DNA of 24,740 bases from a virus, in the IMG/VR virus record IMGVR_UViG_3300021964_000502, positions 1 to 24,740 of that record. One strand, given 5' to 3'. The position numbers were made by a program, and so were the translations under genes. The number at the start of each line of letters is the position of its first letter. Position 1 is the stretch's first letter. Positions 1-13,796 of this stretch are shown piece after piece. The notes below the pieces were generated by a model that was not told where the DNA came from, searched no databases, and saw nothing but the letters and a program-made list of their open reading frames with translations.

Positions 1-2092
1 TAGACCCTCTGACCGTCATGGTAGATTGATCTTCAACATGTGCCAAGAGACCGTATTGAGAGGTTAGGGTATTGCCAGCACCAGGATCCCTAACCATGTG
101 AGCATGTACGAAGTCTGCGTTAGAGCCCCCCGTTAAATACACAGAAGGTAGAAGTTTATCAGAATTGTCTGCCTTCCCAAAGCAACCGCTGGTGTAAACC
201 ATGCTAAATAGGCTAGGCATCGAGCTTGTGTATAAAGGTCTAATCGTAGAGTTTTCACAAGCTATATCTTGTCCGTTAGTGATGCACGCAATTTGAGACT
301 CTTTGAAATTTTCTACGTTCGCAGGAAGTGCTTGTAAGACGCTGGCGTATAGATTCTTATTGTATACTAAATCAGAGTTTGAAAGTTTTAAACCTGTAGA
401 TTGATTGAACCTAGCCGCAAAACTATCAAACTTAATATTAGAATTTATAGCATCCAACCCGAAGTAATTACCGTCTAGAAGAACTCTTCCGTCATAATCT
501 AAAACACTATTTTCAAGTCTGATCCCAGCTTCAGTATTAAGCTCAGAGAATATTTGAGTAGCGTCAAACCACCTCGCATTTCCGCCTCCTGTAGCAAAGC
601 CATTAAGCTCTGTTCTGCCTCCAGTAATTAGAGAATTTACAGCATGAATGCCGATATCATTCCTAGAGAAACAAGTTAACGACTCCTGAGAAGGCAATGG
701 AATAGAACTCCCAGCTAGGGTTGCTCGCAGTGCAACCAGGAAACCATTATACTCGGACACACTTCCAGAAGACTGTAGGGACTTTTCAATGTCTCTATCG
801 TATGTTGACTTGAAATTGATAGTAGAATTATCTGCGTAAATGCCCGCTCCATAAGAACTTTGGGAATCATAGGCTAATCTCTTTTCAGCAAATGGAACAC
901 CTGTTCTAACAGAATCAACTACCTCGTAATTTCTATAGGCAACGATTCCTCTAAGAATATTAACTTCCGAATTGCTGGCATACAATCCTGCTTTGTTGCA
1001 TCTAGAGACCGAACAACGCTCTAAATTAACTTGAGAGTTACTAATCTCTATACCCCTGTCGATAGTGTGCTGACCATCAACATTAAAGTTTCTGATGTAG
1101 ATGGGGCCATTACATTCGTTTATCTTAATATAGTCTAAGCTGTTAAAGTAAGAGAAGGACATGGCTCCATACCCAGGATCGTAACTCGCACCTTCATCAA
1201 CTGCGTTTCCCCAAGCTTCCTCAGAATTGCTAAGGTAGTTAAGGGTGCTCACATCATAAATAGCGTCGTTATTAGTTTTATCGAAAGCATCAAAAATAAG
1301 ACGAACAGTACCACTGACCTCAGAGGCAGCGGTATCCCAAGGTGTAGCAGTACTGCTTAAGCCAACCGAGAGTCTGTTATTTACTTGATCGTCACCTCTC
1401 TTGGCGAAGACATAAGGATTAGTAAATCTAGAATCATTAAGCCAATCTCCAACATTTACACCTGAAGCTACACGTATTTTACTACCATCATCATTCTTCT
1501 TATACATGTAAGAAAGAACGTGATCAGTAGCAGGGTTAGGACCAGCAAGGTTATTAAGAATACTAGCTCTAGGAATAATACCCGCAATCGACACAGCAGA
1601 AGCTAAAGCATAATCTGAAAAAGAAGTGTCGTACTCAAGCTTAGTGTATTGCTGTCTGGTAGTGTCAAGACTCCTGGGGTATGCAAAAGCACTGTTTCTA
1701 TTGATGATCTCAAGAGCACCATTAGGTCCAAAAGATTTGTTAGATAAATTAATACCACCAAGGTTACCAAAGCTTGCAACCTCAATAAGGATAGGACAAT
1801 TAATAACCTCAGGCAGCGCATCAATACAAGAGCTTAATGTTGTAAAGAAGAGAGGATTACATGACGATGTAGCATCAGCAGACACAATGAAGGACATACC
1901 CGTAAGGGCAGATGTAGGATGTCCTAACTTCTCCCACAGAAGGTGAGTTCGCTCGTCTAAATCGTGAAGAGGTAAGTTATCCTGTTCCCAATTGTAGAAA
2001 GAGCTAGCATCATACTTAGTAACCTTATCAGTCCAGCAGGCTAAAAGGTTGTTAGATCCACCTGATACGTATACGTCACTTGGGTTTAACAT
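1..2092 (-). CDS. Tail fibre / surface protein with parallel beta-helix repeats (partial, C-terminus off the left edge)
   Basis: My own translation from the ATG at 2092 stays open through 697 codons to base 1, so the gene is truncated by the window. The start lies one base after the stop of the upstream 201-residue gene; no clear Shine-Dalgarno is seen, so it is probably translationally coupled. Residues 1-320 are not recognised; they open with MLNPSDVYVSGGSNN and are mixed polar sequence. From about residue 325 the protein has the look of a right-handed beta-helix, with eight rungs carrying a pattern G-(I/L)-x-x-x-NS-x-(I/V/L), for example GIEISNSQVNL, GLYASNSEVNI and GIYADNSTINF. Such folds are common in phage adhesins and polysaccharide depolymerases. 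I see no catalytic signature in the visible part. As the last gene of the baseplate cluster it is most likely a host-contact fibre or tailspike. Its frame is certain; the role is inferred from fold and context. Confidence 0.85.
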   Translation of the reverse strand, partial: MLNPSDVYVSGGSNNLLACWTDKVTKYDASSFYNWEQDNLPLHDLDERTHLLWEKLGHPTSALTGMSFIVSADATSSCNPLFFTTLSSCIDALPEVINCPILIEVASFGNLGGINLSNKSFGPNGALEIINRNSAFAYPRSLDTTRQQYTKLEYDTSFSDYALASAVSIAGIIPRASILNNLAGPNPATDHVLSYMYKKNDDGSKIRVASGVNVGDWLNDSRFTNPYVFAKRGDDQVNNRLSVGLSSTATPWDTAASEVSGTVRLIFDAFDKTNNDAIYDVSTLNYLSNSEEAWGNAVDEGASYDPGYGAMSFSYFNSLDYIKINECNGPIYIRNFNVDGQHTIDRGIEISNSQVNLERCSVSRCNKAGLYASNSEVNILRGIVAYRNYEVVDSVRTGVPFAEKRLAYDSQSSYGAGIYADNSTINFKSTYDRDIEKSLQSSGSVSEYNGFLVALRATLAGSSIPLPSQESLTCFSRNDIGIHAVNSLITGGRTELNGFATGGGNARWFDATQIFSELNTEAGIRLENSVLDYDGRVLLDGNYFGLDAINSNIKFDSFAARFNQSTGLKLSNSDLVYNKNLYASVLQALPANVENFKESQIACITNGQDIACENSTIRPLYTSSMPSLFSMVYTSGCFGKADNSDKLLPSVYLTGGSNADFVHAHMVRDPGAGNTLTSQYGLLAHVEDQSTMTVRGS
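239..1054 (-). repeat. Eight degenerate beta-helix rungs with an Asn-Ser core (protein repeat)
   Basis: Residues 347 to 618 of the partial fibre contain eight irregularly spaced copies of a short motif, G-(I/L)-x-x-x-NS-x-(I/V/L). They read GIEISNSQVNL, GLYASNSEVNI, GIYADNSTINF, GIHAVNSLITG, GIRLENSVLDY, GLDAINSNIKF, GLKLSNSDLVY and a weaker last copy, DIACENSTIRP. The constant Asn-Ser would sit at a turn and could form an asparagine ladder, as in known parallel beta-helices. Spacing varies from about 25 to 70 residues, so the rungs carry loops of different sizes. The repeat is visible at protein level only; the DNA copies are diverged. Confidence 0.7.
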
Positions 2093-6700: not shown

Positions 6701-7764
6701 CTCTGAACTGATTTTTTAGTACCTACGGATTTGTAAATAGAGACAGCATTCCTAAGCTGAAGACGCCATCTAGAAGGATCATTTCCGAATAAGTCCCACC
6801 CAATCAACTGAGCTATTAATGGGAGATAATCATCAGGACAATCATCAATATCATAGAGAGTTGATATCTCTTCTGTGTCGTTATTAATATCAAACGCAAA
6901 GAATGATAAAGCCCTGATAAGCCTTGCAAAAGGACCGCTTTCAACTTTTTCAGAAGACTTAAGATTGCTGTCTATGTATGTTTCAAACTTATCTTTTACC
7001 CTAAAGTCTGAACCATCCGCGAACAATGGAGAATAAATTACATCATTCCATGTTTTAAGTTTTTCTAATTGCTGAGTTCCGCTAAGGTCAGATCGAGTTC
7101 CACTTGCAAATGTGGCAGAAGGATAATACGAAGTTAAATTATTTCTCCAAACATACTCAGATAACCCTTTAATACCGTCATTAAGATTTACAGGAGTTCC
7201 TGAGTAGAGATTTTTAACTATTAAATCTTTTACATAAGAAGAAGGGTCGTAAGATGAACCCGATGTATTAAGGAAATACATCCACGAAAGGTTCGCTATG
7301 AGATAATTATGTATTGCAGAAGAATCGCCAATGCTAGAAAATAAAGAAGAATCAGGATTGTTTAAATTAATAGCAGAAATAACAGTATCCTGAACATACG
7401 TTGAAAATTGAGTTTCGTTTTCAAAGTCTTTGAACTTCTTGTCAAAGTAGGATAGAATGTTATCTTCAAAACTCTGTGTGGTAATATTCGTTAGGTTATT
7501 TTGTTTTACAAAATAAGGAGTTATGCCTTCTAAGGTATTTATAGAACTGAATGCAGAATTGCTTACGGCGCTTACGTTTAGGATAGACGAGAAGTTATCA
7601 GCAATGTCTATGTGGCTGTTAATAATTGTATCAATTAAATCGTCTTCTTTAGGAGTTTCAGATATATCATCCTCATAAAGGTATGCAGGGAGAATATACT
7701 TTAAAGCCTTAAAGTAATTTCTCTTAAAGAAGTTAGGATTTCTTAAATAAGCCTTACTGGACAT
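3733..7764 (-). CDS. Giant baseplate wedge protein, gp7 / phage tail protein I-like (1343 aa)
   Basis: Likely the wedge protein that pairs with gp6 to form the inner baseplate ring. The diagnostic stretch is residues 307-360: DDCPDDYLPLIAQLIGWDLF followed by an Arg-rich helix (SRWRLQLRNAVSIYKSVGTK). This is the usual tail protein I pattern of a Leu-Pro-Leu-(I/L)-A helix, a Trp/Arg helix and a closing Lys-Gly/Val-Gly-Thr turn. The gene sits directly after gp6, as gpI follows gpJ in P2 and gene 7 follows gene 6 in T4. At 1343 residues it is larger than T4 gp7 (1032) and far larger than P2 gpI. Residues 550-1200 look like several beta-sandwich modules, with a short helical segment at about 820-870. 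The end is TITFDI. It overlaps both neighbours by one base. Identification as gp7/gpI is fairly safe; the modules beyond residue 500 are not assigned. Confidence 0.88.
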   Translation of the reverse strand: MSSKAYLRNPNFFKRNYFKALKYILPAYLYEDDISETPKEDDLIDTIINSHIDIADNFSSILNVSAVSNSAFSSINTLEGITPYFVKQNNLTNITTQSFEDNILSYFDKKFKDFENETQFSTYVQDTVISAINLNNPDSSLFSSIGDSSAIHNYLIANLSWMYFLNTSGSSYDPSSYVKDLIVKNLYSGTPVNLNDGIKGLSEYVWRNNLTSYYPSATFASGTRSDLSGTQQLEKLKTWNDVIYSPLFADGSDFRVKDKFETYIDSNLKSSEKVESGPFARLIRALSFFAFDINNDTEEISTLYDIDDCPDDYLPLIAQLIGWDLFGNDPSRWRLQLRNAVSIYKSVGTKKSVQSTINTVFPKDQFPIEGRITELWESYIPYLIYYALATESEYFKSFQSWTPSIASEMGIEKYSTSSMDDNIRLAVDKIILDTVRQFPDQFPLTEWLTNEVPVFNYRGREYPIPPFEEYPYYVNTELGDPQITFIADRLACFGVRQQFAIDVSSYITSNAITDDDEPRTGSWLIFTSGYNSPPNLDNLIRNLNDNRFDYASLWSGKSSHFKLVLQASEFDFTKNGLDEIGNGDALDFVAQSINKMAPAHSIPLVSLEVSGPPETLSIEGSCLPHVYLDREEIDVAAGNNTFASGIYLNTYKRGINTGGNVIGKSATQSLVSPELVNVSSIGSVPRNTSRRRSYEKIMPFNGYYDRTGFNMPVGFDMASGLSGIPLGLIPSSLTYAPVTDHINLPSIWSQCENLSSNNSYYEYDVSNTQVTRGLNANFQANTDRTTDRGQLPGIYAAMHRVSEREKYLRAELQVGIDALQQDLITLQNSNAAASSLSATEDKIVSWTSGVTLSYATSATNDGSAGYTFPNGTSDYYNFEFGRDLHRLFNIYKESFYWHRLSPDIQMQDGANIFSHAYGPLLYNHGFENILDDTYVTTSLTDPERLTVTGTAFTGVTAFVASAASSMYLDTFERVASGIVDNVELVLTSGTEDDSSFSIVKVPGTERSQYEDPFLYDRTFIMMRSGVGAATRFRFDISKYSAPSNHPISNNFLLPNHTYSLNFDSLISNDARTIFGGRSVNVWIHTKPEDGKMWSFNSEGDWVQHTQLLSRQDVIQKYSHSKFLPVETREPQFSPPTSNGINLTFSNRNLECIDQLTNLPSNSNVSPSPLIGITEDDFKNFQVNFDTRNRDIRLPNNYLESYGQLHRQDQEYVVEIFTSPGGQPDTYMILDKVEIQDLTMKRLSEIFAAGTKSDPLCVLDDLKRGCLEYRVELTKQDLFDIFKHFNNIAGKNTATAYASRDKDKTQTIMESEGGSRIDYRYVNELADIVYVTLNLGINTITFDI

Positions 7765-9365
7765 TATACATACTCTGTTCGAATGGCTAAGTTATTTAAT
7801 TGAATTATCTCATTAAATCCAACTTTAATGGGCTTATCAACATTGGTAACTTCTGCATACCTGATATTAGTTTCGTCACTCAATAGAACTCTAATTAAAT
7901 CCTGTGGTACAAACGGCTCTTGGAAATCAGTGTTATCAATATTCATGTAATTTAGAATAGATCTACGGGCTGACTGAACAAGCTGGCCTTCACTCCTCCT
8001 AAACTTTTCATCTAATGTTATAGTGACGACAAGGTCTAAAGTCCTTATCAGACCATCTACAACTACAACCTCATCGGTTAACATCTTCTTCGACTCCATG
8101 GCCTCTAGAAGCTGTCTCTTGTATTCCTGAGTCGCTCTCCTAAGTTGACTATCAGAAGCTCTCTCTAACACAAACAAATCAATTATGTTAGCAGATGAGA
8201 ATGCTCTCCGTACTGTCGCAGTAGCTTTTCCAGTAGATCCATAGTTGGAAGCAAAAGAGTTTGCGAATGCTTTAAAGTCTTGTAGGGTTACAAGACGATT
8301 CTGAGTTCTAAAGTATAACGGAGCATATCTTTTTGCTTGAGCCACAGACTCGGCGTCTCGACCACCCGTCGCCTGACTAGTATTCTCAATAGTTAAAGTC
8401 ACCTCCTCAGAAGTTGCTCCTTGAGAAATGCCCTCAGATTGAGCATTAATAACACTATTTGCTATATTGCCTCGTGTACCACCACCTACACGATAGGTTA
8501 CAACATAATTATCACCTATTGAAGGAGATCTACCAATCGTGTCGTCACCAAACAAAATAGAAGCCCTAAACTGCTCATCGGTAGTTACCTGGAATACTTT
8601 ATCACCCTGACCGGATGCAAAATAAATATTATCTTCCTCTTTGTAAATACCTTCGGTTGTAGAATCTCCTGTTAAGTATACCTGAGCACTTTTCTCAACA
8701 TAAGGAAATTGAGAAAGATTTATTGTTTTTATTGCTTCTGGTGACGCGAATGTTCCTGTCTCGACAACTAAAGCGCCTTCAAGTAGCACAGCGTCTGTAA
8801 CAGTAACCGTCCCTCCCGAAGAGCTAACACTAAAATCTAAGTCTTCACTCGCATCAGTAAGATCTACAGTCCCGTTACTGTTAACTTTATACAGGGTGTA
8901 GGTCAATGTACCCCCATCTTCAGGGGAAGTAATGGTAACTACTCGATTAGCTGCGGAAACAGTTAAAGAAGAAGGACTTGCCTCAGTATTAGTTGTATAA
9001 GTGATTGAAGCATTAGCAGCAGCAGATATAGGACCCTTTAATCTGACGCCAATAACCTCTAATAACCTCTTAACACTATCACGACTTCTAGCTGTTCCTA
9101 TGTAATTCTCATTAGCAAGATAATCAGATTTGTTAGACTGGATGTGCCCAACTGCTGCCATCATCTCTAACAGGAGGACACCAAAGTCTGAGCTTTCAAA
9201 GTTGTTGTAGTCTAAAGGGAAGTTAGCTCTTACATATTTAATTAATGTTTGACGTAGTGTCTCAAAGTCGGAGGCGCTATAATCAATAAGCTTTTGCTTA
9301 TTATCAAGCTCTGAAGGTAATAACTTTAAAAAGTCCGAATCAACTGTTCCTGAAAAAACTACCAT
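7764..9365 (-). CDS. 6: Baseplate wedge protein gp6 / baseplate J-like
   Basis: This protein forms, with gp7 and gp25, the wedge core that transmits the contraction signal. The N-terminus has the typical gp6/gpJ entry: DYSASDFETLRQTLIKYVRA (28-47), then FESSDFGVLLLEMMAAVGHI (56-75) and ANENYIGTARSRDSVKRL (84-101). The middle (about 110-330) is beta-rich and matches the J-like insertion. The C-terminal half has the R-x-Q-x-RLVT-x-xDF pattern typical of baseplate J at about residue 355-370, and a helical end. At 533 residues it is shorter than T4 gp6 (660) and longer than P2 gpJ (about 300). It lies between gp25 and the gp7-like gene, with one-base overlaps on both sides. A GGAG about nine bases before the ATG supports the start. 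Confidence 0.92.
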   Translation of the reverse strand: MVVFSGTVDSDFLKLLPSELDNKQKLIDYSASDFETLRQTLIKYVRANFPLDYNNFESSDFGVLLLEMMAAVGHIQSNKSDYLANENYIGTARSRDSVKRLLEVIGVRLKGPISAAANASITYTTNTEASPSSLTVSAANRVVTITSPEDGGTLTYTLYKVNSNGTVDLTDASEDLDFSVSSSGGTVTVTDAVLLEGALVVETGTFASPEAIKTINLSQFPYVEKSAQVYLTGDSTTEGIYKEEDNIYFASGQGDKVFQVTTDEQFRASILFGDDTIGRSPSIGDNYVVTYRVGGGTRGNIANSVINAQSEGISQGATSEEVTLTIENTSQATGGRDAESVAQAKRYAPLYFRTQNRLVTLQDFKAFANSFASNYGSTGKATATVRRAFSSANIIDLFVLERASDSQLRRATQEYKRQLLEAMESKKMLTDEVVVVDGLIRTLDLVVTITLDEKFRRSEGQLVQSARRSILNYMNIDNTDFQEPFVPQDLIRVLLSDETNIRYAEVTNVDKPIKVGFNEIIQLNNLAIRTEYV

Positions 9366-9808
9366 TATACTCTAACTCCGATATTGAAGGCACTGGAAAT
9401 AGCATCCTTAACAGAACAGTAAAGATTAACCTTTAATTGACCACTTCTAGTTTCAAAGACTTGAATCTTTCCGACTGAAACTGTGCTAAGGTATCTACGT
9501 ATTGATGTTACAACCTCCTCTTTTATCAAGGAAAAAGTAATCTCATCTAAGGGCTCCATTAAAAACTTTCTAAGGTTACAACCATAATCTGGCCTCATAA
9601 ATCTCTCACCTCTCTCAGTCTTTATTAAAGAAGAAAGATTTGATTTAACTAAATCTAAATTAGTGGATTTACTAAAATATCCATTCTTAGGGTTTTTTGG
9701 TATGGGGTAGTTAAGCCCTTGCAATCTTGGATCTTTTAATACTGTAGCTTTCTGAATTACAGAAGGAGCTACTGTGCCGTAAGTTGTAACGTTATTTGAG
9801 ATAGCCAT
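9365..9808 (-). CDS. 25: Baseplate wedge protein gp25 / GPW family
   Basis: A small wedge protein at the sheath-baseplate interface, related to TssE of type VI secretion. Residues 57-86 carry the family core: a helix SSLIKTERGERFMRPDYGCN followed by LRKFLMEP. A conserved acidic helix (LDEITFSLIKEEVVTSIRRY) follows. At the place where the family usually has the Glu-Pro-Arg-Ile turn, this protein reads S-V-G-K-I (111-115), so that motif is not kept. The length (147) is near T4 gp25 (132), with a longer N-terminus of about 40 residues. It starts one base after the stop of the 1328-residue gene and overlaps gp6 by one base (TAATG). The order gp25-gp6-gp7 is standard for contractile tails. Confidence 0.92.
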   Translation of the reverse strand: MAISNNVTTYGTVAPSVIQKATVLKDPRLQGLNYPIPKNPKNGYFSKSTNLDLVKSNLSSLIKTERGERFMRPDYGCNLRKFLMEPLDEITFSLIKEEVVTSIRRYLSTVSVGKIQVFETRSGQLKVNLYCSVKDAISSAFNIGVRV

Positions 9809-9809
9809 T

Positions 9810-12800
9810 TTAAGTTGTCTTGAATACTATTCCTGCACTAGAACCATCTACGGAGTCTGGATCTGTTACACTATTTGTACCACTAAGGGGTTCATACCAA
9901 GCCACCCAATCGTCAACGTTATTACTAGTTAAAAACGTAGGAGGATTCTGATTAATTTTCATATTTGTAATAGTAATATCTTCAGGTCTATTTGTTGGTT
10001 GATTGGGGTGCTGAGTGCTAAGTCTTGTAGCAGACAACCCAATAATACAGGAAGACATTTGGAGAGATGAAGCTTCGTTAGCACTAGGAGATATGTTAAT
10101 ATTTGTTAAATTAATATTTTCATAGAATCCGCCTGGAGGAATCTGAGATGCTGCTGGGCCTCCAGGTCTTAACATGTTACCCCATCTAAATATGCTGTGA
10201 TATACGGGATGGTCTTGACCTCCACGTATATCAACATCTGAAATTAGAGCATTAACATTACCCCTCACGAAAGAATCAGATACATTCTCAGAACTATAGA
10301 ATGTAAATATGCCTTGTCTTCCAAACGAATTAGTTAGAGGATTCGGTTTTGTAGGAGGGGCATTGTAACATAAAACATCAGTATCCTTTACCACACTCCA
10401 ATACGCGCTACTTGCGCTGTTAGTGAATGAGAAGAAGGGCGTTGTCCTCATACACCCTAAGATATTATTCCTGAATAAAACTTCATTGTTCCAATTACTG
10501 CCAAAAGGATTAATCTGGTCATCCCCACAAACATGAACTGAGTTCTTAACGCTAATTCTATCTCCTGTTTTTGAGCTTCCTGGCTTAAAGCCATCAGCAT
10601 TAAACGACCAAGGTATTAGTGCTTTGCAGTGATTGAAAGTATCAAATAAATTTCTACCTATTACAAAAAATCCCCAATTAGTTATAGTGATTCCCTCCAG
10701 GGTCATATTAGGAAGTCCAATGTTGTTTCTATATGTCGAAGCATACTCATTCATGGATGACCATGACGTTCCTAAAGGGCCGTAGAAACTCGGAGCTTCT
10801 TCAAATAAACTCTTTACACCTTGTTGAGTGTCTTGGTCAAATAAGAACGATCTAGGGTATAGCTCGCCTGGGGAGAATACTCCTCTACCTATAACCTTAC
10901 TGTTGTGAGCACTAGCACAATCAAACCCACCAATAATATATGCGTTAGCGTCTATGTAGAACGTAGAGTTAGATGATATAGGTAGTCCGGCACTGACATA
11001 GTGAATACCTGGGCCGAAGTAAGTTCCTGGTTGTAGACTACTAAATACTGTAGGGTTCCCTGGGGATGCCCAATTAATTGTAGTATATGCGTCTGACGGG
11101 CTGGATGTTAGGTTAGGTGTAGTTTGAGGATTGGCAGCGTCAGGATCAATCTCTAGGTGATCTAACCTATTCTCCCCAGCGTAGCTTTGAAGGCCAGCAG
11201 GTATCGGAGGTTTGAACGGATCTCCAAACAGGAATAAAGGAGTGCTCGGAGCTAAATTATCATTAGTAAACTCCAGCCATAACTTGTCACCAATGTAAAC
11301 CTCTCCCTCAAAAGTGTCATCAGTAGGGTTGTGTGTAAAAGATCTAGTCTTATTACTTCTCTTAGGGAATACATAAAGAGATGTACTAGCAGGGAATCCA
11401 CCGTCTAATGCACGTATCTTAACTTTTGCTAAACCACTTAATCCAAAAGTTGTAAAGTTCATAGTGGGGTGAGAACCATGAGGGCACCAGTAAGCACTAA
11501 GGCTTTCGTAAATCCCTCCGGGCTTTACTGCGTCTGTTAGCTGTCTAGGGTTCCCGACTCCAGAGGCTTGAAACACAAAACTAGAAAGCCAGCTTGAAGA
11601 CTCAGCATCATAAACGTCAACTTCAAAGTAAGGAGACTTTAAAGAAGATAAGCTCCCTGGCATGTATTCAGGACTTCCACTTACTTCAGATGAATAAACC
11701 TCAACAGCACTTAACGAAGACGACTGAAACGATATCTCATTAAGGAAAGAATCACTAACAATTTTAAAATTAGAGTTCGTCTCCCCTTCTCGATAAATCC
11801 ACATCAAACACTTTTTCAGTTGAGCGCATAATTCAGAATAGAAGTTATCGTAATAGGTTGAAAAATGTGAACCACTATCGGCGCTTCCATAAATGGAATC
11901 CCCATACTGATAAGTCCTTGTTGAAGAAAAATCAGTGATGCCATTAGTCGTTGGATTTCTCTTCACATAACGATAAGTATCATCTATATCGCTAATCAGA
12001 TCTATTAACTCTTCACGTTCATAGTGAGGTATCGGGTTAGGGTCGTATACACTATTCCTTAACTCGGCATACCCAACTGAGTTTGAGTCATAATCAATAA
12101 TAAATTTAGATAATGACTTTAGGAATTCATTCCTGATAGTCATTGTTTTATTTATAACTTGCCACTCATCGCCTCCTGTAGAGAAAGTGTATGAGGAAAT
12201 TGCAGGAAAGTAGTCTCCAAAGTTGTATAATATTCTTAGATTCTCTTCTAAATTATTCCTATGAAGAGAGGAGGTCATTAAATTATACTCAACGGAGTCA
12301 TTGTATTCAGAACTATAAGGGGCTCTAAATGTTTTAGAACCTTCACCAGTCTTACCTATAACTGCCTTGAGTGAATCTCCAGAGTTAACATAAAAATCTT
12401 TTAAGTGCTCCCAATCAGTTTTATTTGCAGAGACATAAACGTTGTCCTTAAAAGATTCTAACTCTACAGGAACGCCTGAGAAAAACCCTGCTGATACATT
12501 TGTTGGGTCAGTAGATTTAGTTTTTAATCTACCATACTTCGTTAACTGTTTTCTATTATACCAATTAACACTGGAAGCTTCGGAGAGCACAGAGCTTGCA
12601 AGATTTAAATCTTTATATTGACCATCCCAATAGATATTTCCAAACTTTTCTCTAGACTTTCCAAAACTAAAGACACTATCTACAATACCAATATCATTAA
12701 AATACCCAACTGAGCTTGAGTTAAGTAAATCTACAGTAGAATTAAAATTCTGACCCAATTCAGGATCGTAGGCTGCATAAACCATAAACGGTTTAGATAT

Positions 12801-13796
12801 ACCACCTACTGCTGCGCCACTAATTGCTCCATTTAAGTATCTCTTAAAAGCATAATCATTATTTGCAATGAAAGGCACTGATACAAAATCAATTATACCG
12901 GAGAAATCTTGAATGTCTCTAATTTCGTAAGACCCACTAGGTCCAATCCCTTTACCATTGTCCAAATAACCTGTGTCGTTGAATATGTTGATACCGTTCT
13001 TAAAAGAAATAGTATACTTAATGTCCGTTGAAGATAAGCTTTGATTTAAAGTGTTGTGTGACGATAACACTAAGTTTTTATATGTTGGCATCACTGGTTT
13101 ATTACACAAATCAAAACACCACATTGACTGGTAAGAAGAGACAGACTCTGCTAACGCTTCTAAGTAAGGTGTGGACGAAGCTTGTACAAAACTATTAGCT
13201 CCTCCCCAAGATCCAACTCTAGCTAGGAAAGGATTTCTAGGATGCTCAACGGCTAACTCTCTACCGAGATCAGGCTGCGTCCAATCTTCTTGTTCAGTGT
13301 ATTTCTTATCTTCGCTGTATAGTGTGGCGTCACTATAATCAGCATCCCACAGTATAAACTGAACTCTAATTTTATGACGATCACAGATAGCAAGAAAACT
13401 TTTTACATTTTTTAAATAATTGTCAGGATCGTGCTCATAAGCTGCGAAACTTAATGGAGTTCTAACACAATTGATTCCTAACTTTTTAAGATTCTTTACA
13501 GAGTCTTCGTGATCACTTTCATTGTAGTAGTGCCATATTGAAGCACTGTTGGCACCTGTGAATATCTCTTTACCTAACCTAGCCATAGTAAGTAAAAGAG
13601 AAACGCCCTCCGAAAGATTAATTTTACCGTCAGCCACCGCAGCACTAATTAAGCTAAAGGCACTTTCGTAATCTAATCTTGGGAGATATCCAGACTTCTC
13701 CCATTCAGTCTTCATACTAGGGAGGTAATAAACGCCCCTAGCATTAGAGAAGTATTGAACAGAATTGGCGGGGATATCTGGATTGATTTTAGGCAT
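9810..13796 (-). CDS. Two-module carbohydrate-active virion protein: degenerate TIM-barrel glycosidase plus GH28/GH49-like beta-helix (1328 aa)
   Basis: Residues 80-350 resemble a cellulase-superfamily (beta/alpha)8 barrel: LKKLGINCVRTPLSF (103-117), then FLAICDRHKIRVQFILWDAD (134-153), then WCFDLCNKPV (226-235), then a final strand KPFMVYAAYDPELG (335-348). The acid/base site, normally Asn-Glu-Pro, is Asn-Lys-Pro (Lys233, codon AAA at 13098-13100), and the second catalytic Glu position reads Ala-Ala. Residues 420-700 are not recognised. Residues 765-865 look like the beta-sandwich that precedes GH49 helices. Residues 920-1285 form a beta-helix with YFGPGIHYVSAGLPISSN, FNADGFKPG (Asp1068) and VCGDDQINPFG (Asp1092-Asp1093). 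This matches the Asp / Asp-Asp catalytic set of clan GH-N (polygalacturonase, dextranase). A surface polysaccharide depolymerase is likely. It overlaps the lectin gene before it by one base. Fold assignments are from motifs only; substrate unknown. Confidence 0.85.
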   Translation of the reverse strand: MPKINPDIPANSVQYFSNARGVYYLPSMKTEWEKSGYLPRLDYESAFSLISAAVADGKINLSEGVSLLLTMARLGKEIFTGANSASIWHYYNESDHEDSVKNLKKLGINCVRTPLSFAAYEHDPDNYLKNVKSFLAICDRHKIRVQFILWDADYSDATLYSEDKKYTEQEDWTQPDLGRELAVEHPRNPFLARVGSWGGANSFVQASSTPYLEALAESVSSYQSMWCFDLCNKPVMPTYKNLVLSSHNTLNQSLSSTDIKYTISFKNGINIFNDTGYLDNGKGIGPSGSYEIRDIQDFSGIIDFVSVPFIANNDYAFKRYLNGAISGAAVGGISKPFMVYAAYDPELGQNFNSTVDLLNSSSVGYFNDIGIVDSVFSFGKSREKFGNIYWDGQYKDLNLASSVLSEASSVNWYNRKQLTKYGRLKTKSTDPTNVSAGFFSGVPVELESFKDNVYVSANKTDWEHLKDFYVNSGDSLKAVIGKTGEGSKTFRAPYSSEYNDSVEYNLMTSSLHRNNLEENLRILYNFGDYFPAISSYTFSTGGDEWQVINKTMTIRNEFLKSLSKFIIDYDSNSVGYAELRNSVYDPNPIPHYEREELIDLISDIDDTYRYVKRNPTTNGITDFSSTRTYQYGDSIYGSADSGSHFSTYYDNFYSELCAQLKKCLMWIYREGETNSNFKIVSDSFLNEISFQSSSLSAVEVYSSEVSGSPEYMPGSLSSLKSPYFEVDVYDAESSSWLSSFVFQASGVGNPRQLTDAVKPGGIYESLSAYWCPHGSHPTMNFTTFGLSGLAKVKIRALDGGFPASTSLYVFPKRSNKTRSFTHNPTDDTFEGEVYIGDKLWLEFTNDNLAPSTPLFLFGDPFKPPIPAGLQSYAGENRLDHLEIDPDAANPQTTPNLTSSPSDAYTTINWASPGNPTVFSSLQPGTYFGPGIHYVSAGLPISSNSTFYIDANAYIIGGFDCASAHNSKVIGRGVFSPGELYPRSFLFDQDTQQGVKSLFEEAPSFYGPLGTSWSSMNEYASTYRNNIGLPNMTLEGITITNWGFFVIGRNLFDTFNHCKALIPWSFNADGFKPGSSKTGDRISVKNSVHVCGDDQINPFGSNWNNEVLFRNNILGCMRTTPFFSFTNSASSAYWSVVKDTDVLCYNAPPTKPNPLTNSFGRQGIFTFYSSENVSDSFVRGNVNALISDVDIRGGQDHPVYHSIFRWGNMLRPGGPAASQIPPGGFYENINLTNINISPSANEASSLQMSSCIIGLSATRLSTQHPNQPTNRPEDITITNMKINQNPPTFLTSNNVDDWVAWYEPLSGTNSVTDPDSVDGSSAGIVFKTT

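Follow-up and report, generated by a model that had tools for sequence, protein, structure and literature searches.

The window analysed here, a 24,740-nucleotide stretch of viral DNA, carries a contractile-tail baseplate locus in which gp25-like and gp6/J-like wedge genes lie adjacent to each other, as identified with Pfam and PHROGs. A gene for a 1328-residue protein lies between the gp25-like gene and a gene for a LamG-like protein. The following features of this region, all on the minus strand, are referred to below.

7764..9365 (-), gp6/J-like baseplate wedge protein (phrog_219, E 2e-39)
9365..9808 (-), gp25-like baseplate wedge protein (PF04965, E 5e-11; phrog_261), downstream border of the slot
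9810..13796 (-), whole gene of 1328 aa: barrel, middle region and appended C-terminal module
9813..11756 (-), residues 681-1328, appended C-terminal module, absent from short forms
10518..10523 (-), Asp1092-Asp1093 in CGDD, candidate catalytic Asp pair, invariant in complete modules
10593..10595 (-), Asp1068 in FNADG, candidate catalytic Asp, invariant in complete modules
11757..12521 (-), residues 426-680, middle region common to the short intact proteins (hhalign probability 97.3, E 1.6e-11)
12522..13775 (-), residues 8-425, predicted (beta/alpha)8 barrel, clan GH-A/GH5-like, without the catalytic pair (AlphaFold2, Foldseek, weak PF00150 match)
12774..12776 (-), Ala341 (GCA), nucleophile Glu position at the end of beta7 (alignment and model)
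12873..12875 (-), Pro308 (CCT), position of the GH-A beta6 His of intact relatives (alignment)
13098..13100 (-), Lys233 (AAA), acid/base Glu position at the end of beta4; Glu in L025-L027, L088, L109, L110 and L123
13796..16423 (-), LamG-like protein of the baseplate region, bordering the exchange slot upstream

The position of its gene suggests that the 1328-residue protein is a baseplate-associated virion protein. Searches with phmmer against the PDB, PHROGs and NCBIfam returned no match for it, and tblastn against an annotated phage collection gave no significant match. Weak Pfam matches to Kelch, EarP and CoV_NSP15_M were taken as chance.

AlphaFold2 predicted residues 8-425 to fold as a (beta/alpha)8 barrel whose eight strands follow the order of such a barrel (mean pLDDT 76.8, pTM 0.85). 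This model was generated from a 21-sequence alignment that included distant homologues; a model built on only eight close homologues (pLDDT 43) was not used. When the barrel model was compared to the PDB using Foldseek, 169 matches were obtained at E<=0.001 (best E 2.7e-8), with GH5 mannanases and mannosidases as the top folds and other clan GH-A enzymes next, and a search against a viral library matched phage GH5 proteins, including one from an Erwinia phage. In Pfam, PF00150 (GH5) matched residues 84-235 below threshold (E 0.0011; 19-21 bits against a curated cut-off of 23.5). These model-based comparisons support the assignment of residues 8-425 as a former clan GH-A (GH5-like) glycosidase barrel. 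The initial annotation had proposed, from the letters of the sequence, a TIM barrel derived from a former glycosidase; the predicted fold and its best PDB matches to GH5 agree with this proposal, and the gene lies among baseplate genes.

The acid/base Glu of clan GH-A, which follows an Asn at the end of beta4, is absent from the window barrel. In the model, beta4 comprises residues 225-232, and the Asn is kept as Asn232 (AAT, 13101-13103) with Glu replaced by Lys233 directly after the strand. Likewise, beta7 (337-341) lacks the nucleophile Glu of GH-A and ends instead in Ala341, carried by the putative nucleophile strand KPFMVYAAYDPEL. As for the Arg of beta2 and the His of beta6, Arg112 is found in all aligned rows and the His is replaced in the long clade by Pro308, the last residue of beta6 (305-308). 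The loss of both catalytic Glu residues, noted initially from the AAA codon at 13098-13100 and the Ala-containing strand, was thus reproduced in the model. Glu346 (12759-12761), which had been raised as a shifted nucleophile, lies five residues past the expected nucleophile position and not at the end of beta7, and the model places no other Glu pair in the active site. Of the strand-end positions compared, 23/40 were invariant on the pocket side and 24/40 on the far side, so that conservation did not single out the old active site.

Scans of viral contigs identified ten distinct, full-length long homologues that are 59-98% identical across the barrel (at least 47% in the best segment), and all ten have Lys/Pro/Ala at the three catalytic columns. 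Scanning with the barrel alignment and the neighbouring gp6-like protein also recovered seven short homologues of ~670-730 aa (L025, L026, L027, L088, L109, L110 and L123), in which the catalytic columns read Asn-Glu (beta4), His (beta6) and Glu (beta7), the standard set of GH-A. These intact barrels share about 26-30% identity with the window barrel, and hhalign showed the intact and dead barrels to be unequivocally homologous (E 6e-62). Close homologues read NKP and distant ones NE, so NEP is not common to all of them. A third class, with four aligned members (L061, L064, L104 and L117), has Asp at both Glu columns, lacks a residue at the His column and is also homologous to the intact barrels (hhalign E 1.4e-31). 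Lys/Ala is more than a chance state, as it is fixed in the ten long forms with Glu/His/Glu fixed at the same columns in the seven short ones. No relative of the long, intact or third-class proteins was found in the annotated phage collection or in genome contigs. Two long forms showed individual peculiarities: L020:5971-9894, from a backbone with 94-96% DNA identity to that of the window, alone lacks the beta4 Asn as well (SKP), and the gene at L035:2-2693 is split into two overlapping frames near 1626-1789, reflecting either a contig frameshift or a broken gene.

Short forms comprise the barrel followed by a counterpart of window residues ~432-680, and they end at the equivalent of NFKIV. A C-terminal module of ~650 residues starts where the short proteins stop, and within the homologues it is found in the Lys/Ala form alone. 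From its motifs, this module is predicted to comprise an Ig-like domain followed by a right-handed beta-helix resembling those of GH49 and GH28. Comparison to a GH49 profile, using sequences taken from PDB entries, gave an hhalign probability of 64 (E 6.7e-5; control 0.3), and the VYxAxGAYxxG...GxGVxSGExY and TDG ... DD motifs of GH49 align with the module. At this same probability of 64, Asp1068, Asp1092 and Asp1093 align to the GH49 catalytic Asp motifs, and the module would probably carry catalysis through these candidate residues. PF17433 was matched in one long-form member below its curated threshold (E 0.0037), and PF03718 and PF00295 (GH49 and GH28 in Pfam) had no match in the window. 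Since curated family thresholds were not reached, membership of GH49 is not claimed. The last 20 residues of the protein (9813-9872 of the window), SVTDPDSVDGSSAGIVFKTT, are nearly invariant in all long proteins, among which the module preceding them drops to about 37% identity; SVTDPDSVDGSSAGIVFKTT may be a conserved end that serves docking or trimerisation.

The slot between the LamG-like and gp25-like genes was sampled in relatives using the gp6-like protein and was empty in most relatives whose contigs show both borders. In L025, L026, L088, L109 and L123, both borders are present with the barrel gene alone inside, the LamG-like gene of L088 being truncated by the contig end; the upstream border of L110 is a fragment, and L027 resembles L025. 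Comparison of slot contents with their surroundings revealed repeated disagreement. The window and L020 share 98% identity in gp6 but only 65% in the barrel, while L104 and L118 are 93% identical in the barrel with 64% in gp6 and 44% in gp25. Within the protein itself, the C-terminal module of the window is identical to that of L002 with the barrels at 65%, and 44% identical to that of L004 with the barrels at 99%. Barrel alleles that disagree in this way with their gp6 and gp25 backbones show that slot content is exchanged between phages, and such allele shuffling is typical of adsorption genes. In the third class, the Asp/Asp barrel gene is separated from gp25 by an opposite-strand gene that encodes ~700-800 residues and matched no family. 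It was located in L047, L067 and L078, and at the following positions.

L061:7161-9566 (-), opposite-strand gene
L104:7412-9487 (-), opposite-strand gene
L118:10037-12112 (-), opposite-strand gene

The barrel and opposite-strand gene form a cassette common to the diverged backbones of L104 and L118. An extra large module or gene thus accompanies both inactive classes and is absent from all five of the short intact loci with a complete slot (0/5).

In the barrel tree, the Lys/Ala and Asp/Asp clades each formed one group with 100/100 support on long stems of 2.3 and 2.9 changes per site, respectively. At such a stem length, the single base that separates AAA from GAA, to which the initial annotation had drawn attention, carries no weight. 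With Glu/His/Glu as the ancestral state, two changes account for all states, one loss to Lys/Ala and one to Asp/Asp; the tree is midpoint-rooted and contains long branches that meet, and the order of the losses is not read from it. As the independent losses number only two, the link between loss of catalysis and gain of a module is statistically weak. Pairwise dN/dS across the long-clade barrels was ~0.06-0.15 where synonymous sites were unsaturated, except for the very close pair L007/L008 (0.40). A dN/dS of ~0.1 indicates that the dead barrel is maintained under purifying selection, and, together with the presence of Lys/Ala in all ten long homologues, that this is a fixed, selected state and neither an error nor a pseudogene.

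Overall, the reading we favour, at a probability of roughly 0.55, is an adsorption protein with a pseudo-glycosidase barrel whose catalysis has probably shifted to the appended module. The ancestral slot protein would have been short, with Glu/His/Glu, and probably a surface-glycan hydrolase, a form kept in sister phages. In the lineage of the window, a GH49-like module of ~650 residues would have been added to the chain, and the barrel would have lost both Glu residues and the beta6 His once, ahead of the split of the known long members. Gain of the module and loss of catalysis may have been linked. The dead barrel, then kept under strong purifying selection, would most likely hold or position, itself not cutting, either the glycan of the host surface or the C-terminal module, and any cleaving would be performed by the C-terminal module. 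Conservation does not favour the old active-site ends of the strands over the others, and glycan binding by the barrel, the role put forward in the initial annotation, is suggested by analogy to other pseudo-glycosidases.

That same equal conservation at both strand ends would suit a barrel with a purely structural role, as a spacer or docking domain joining a C-terminal depolymerase to the baseplate, its old pocket having no ligand. Consistent with such a role, the first 35 residues rank among the most conserved of the protein (74-97% identity), and the barrel always precedes the appended module. However, barrel alleles have been swapped between nearly identical baseplates (window and L020), which is more like the behaviour of surface-recognition parts, and we consider a pure spacer possible though distinctly less probable than the adsorption protein proposed above. 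Purifying selection of this strength, with Asp344, Glu346 and Glu184 invariant in the long clade, would also suit a barrel that is still enzymatic through these or other residues, or through other chemistry. In the model, however, none of the three lies at the end of beta4 or beta7, and the beta6 His is gone too; we know of no clan GH-A family that uses such alternative residues, and continued activity of the barrel seems improbable. An ordinary active GH5 misread through an alignment or sequencing artefact, for which Glu346 might be cited as it lies five residues past the nucleophile position, can practically be dismissed given Lys/Ala in ten independent contigs, the placement of residues 233 and 341 at strand ends by the model, and the clear alignment of intact orthologues.

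Among related proteins, the short intact ones have a homologous barrel and middle region and mostly occupy the same slot, and differ by their Glu/His/Glu and the absence of the C-terminal module. The barrel also matched alpha-Klotho (PDB 5w21) in Foldseek, a GH1-like pseudo-glycosidase. Alpha-Klotho is a clan GH-A barrel without the catalytic Glu that serves binding; being an animal hormone co-receptor, its likeness to the window protein is one of principle only. For the C-terminal module, the known counterparts are GH49 dextranase and isopullulanase (PDB 1ogm, 1wmr, 6nzs), whose motifs align with it below curated cut-offs. Aspeborg et al. (2012) reported GH5 modules without catalytic function, including GH5_30, a whole subfamily without the machinery, Rsi24C-GH5 of Clostridium thermocellum, a cellulose sensor, and GH5-expansin fusions of Xanthomonas (PMC3526467). 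Like the window barrel, these are GH5-type barrels without the catalytic pair, some of them fused and some long-branched, and one bound cellulose; they differ in being cellular proteins, with neither an orthologous active allele in a shared exchange slot nor a GH49-like module added to the chain. The text of that study mentions no viruses or phages (PMC3526467), and pseudo-glycosidases as glycan binders have been reviewed (PMC7828330). In phages, gp095 of Erwinia phage S6 and its relatives also place a GH5 domain in a polysaccharide-recognising protein of a polymorphic adsorption region, but the catalytic Glu pair of gp095 is present, its activity was shown, and it belongs to a podophage without a gp25/gp6 baseplate (PMC9544554). 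Similarity between the window protein and the Erwinia phage GH5 proteins is limited to the fold.

GH5 modules without catalysis and GH5 enzymes of phages are thus each on record, and we found no description of their combination in a baseplate; within the open-licence literature, neither a dead GH-A barrel of a phage baseplate nor a single slot with both active and dead alleles was encountered, an absence that weighs little. The initial annotation had noted no counterpart among described phage baseplates; since the module type has precedents outside phages (PMC3526467), the novelty of the pseudo-glycosidase idea lies chiefly in its location. The appended GH49-like module and the intact relatives in the gene slot had been left out of that first reading.

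In phage tail enzymes, binding is generally attributed to the site that cuts. Here, we tentatively suggest, at odds clearly below even, that a receptor-cutting enzyme turned non-catalytic at least twice, once with a second depolymerase on the same chain, so that holding and cutting were separated into domains with active and dead alleles still in the slot. One orthologous slot with active-looking, dead and Asp-substituted barrels offers what looks like a before-and-after set across related phages, in which the shift from receptor cleaving to receptor holding, and the replacement activity, can be tested directly. For annotation, a fold or GH5 match in such contigs does not equate to a glycosidase.

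Elsewhere in the window, at 2-2092 (-), a further large tail protein of >697 aa is truncated by the window end and contains repeats suggestive of a parallel beta-helix.
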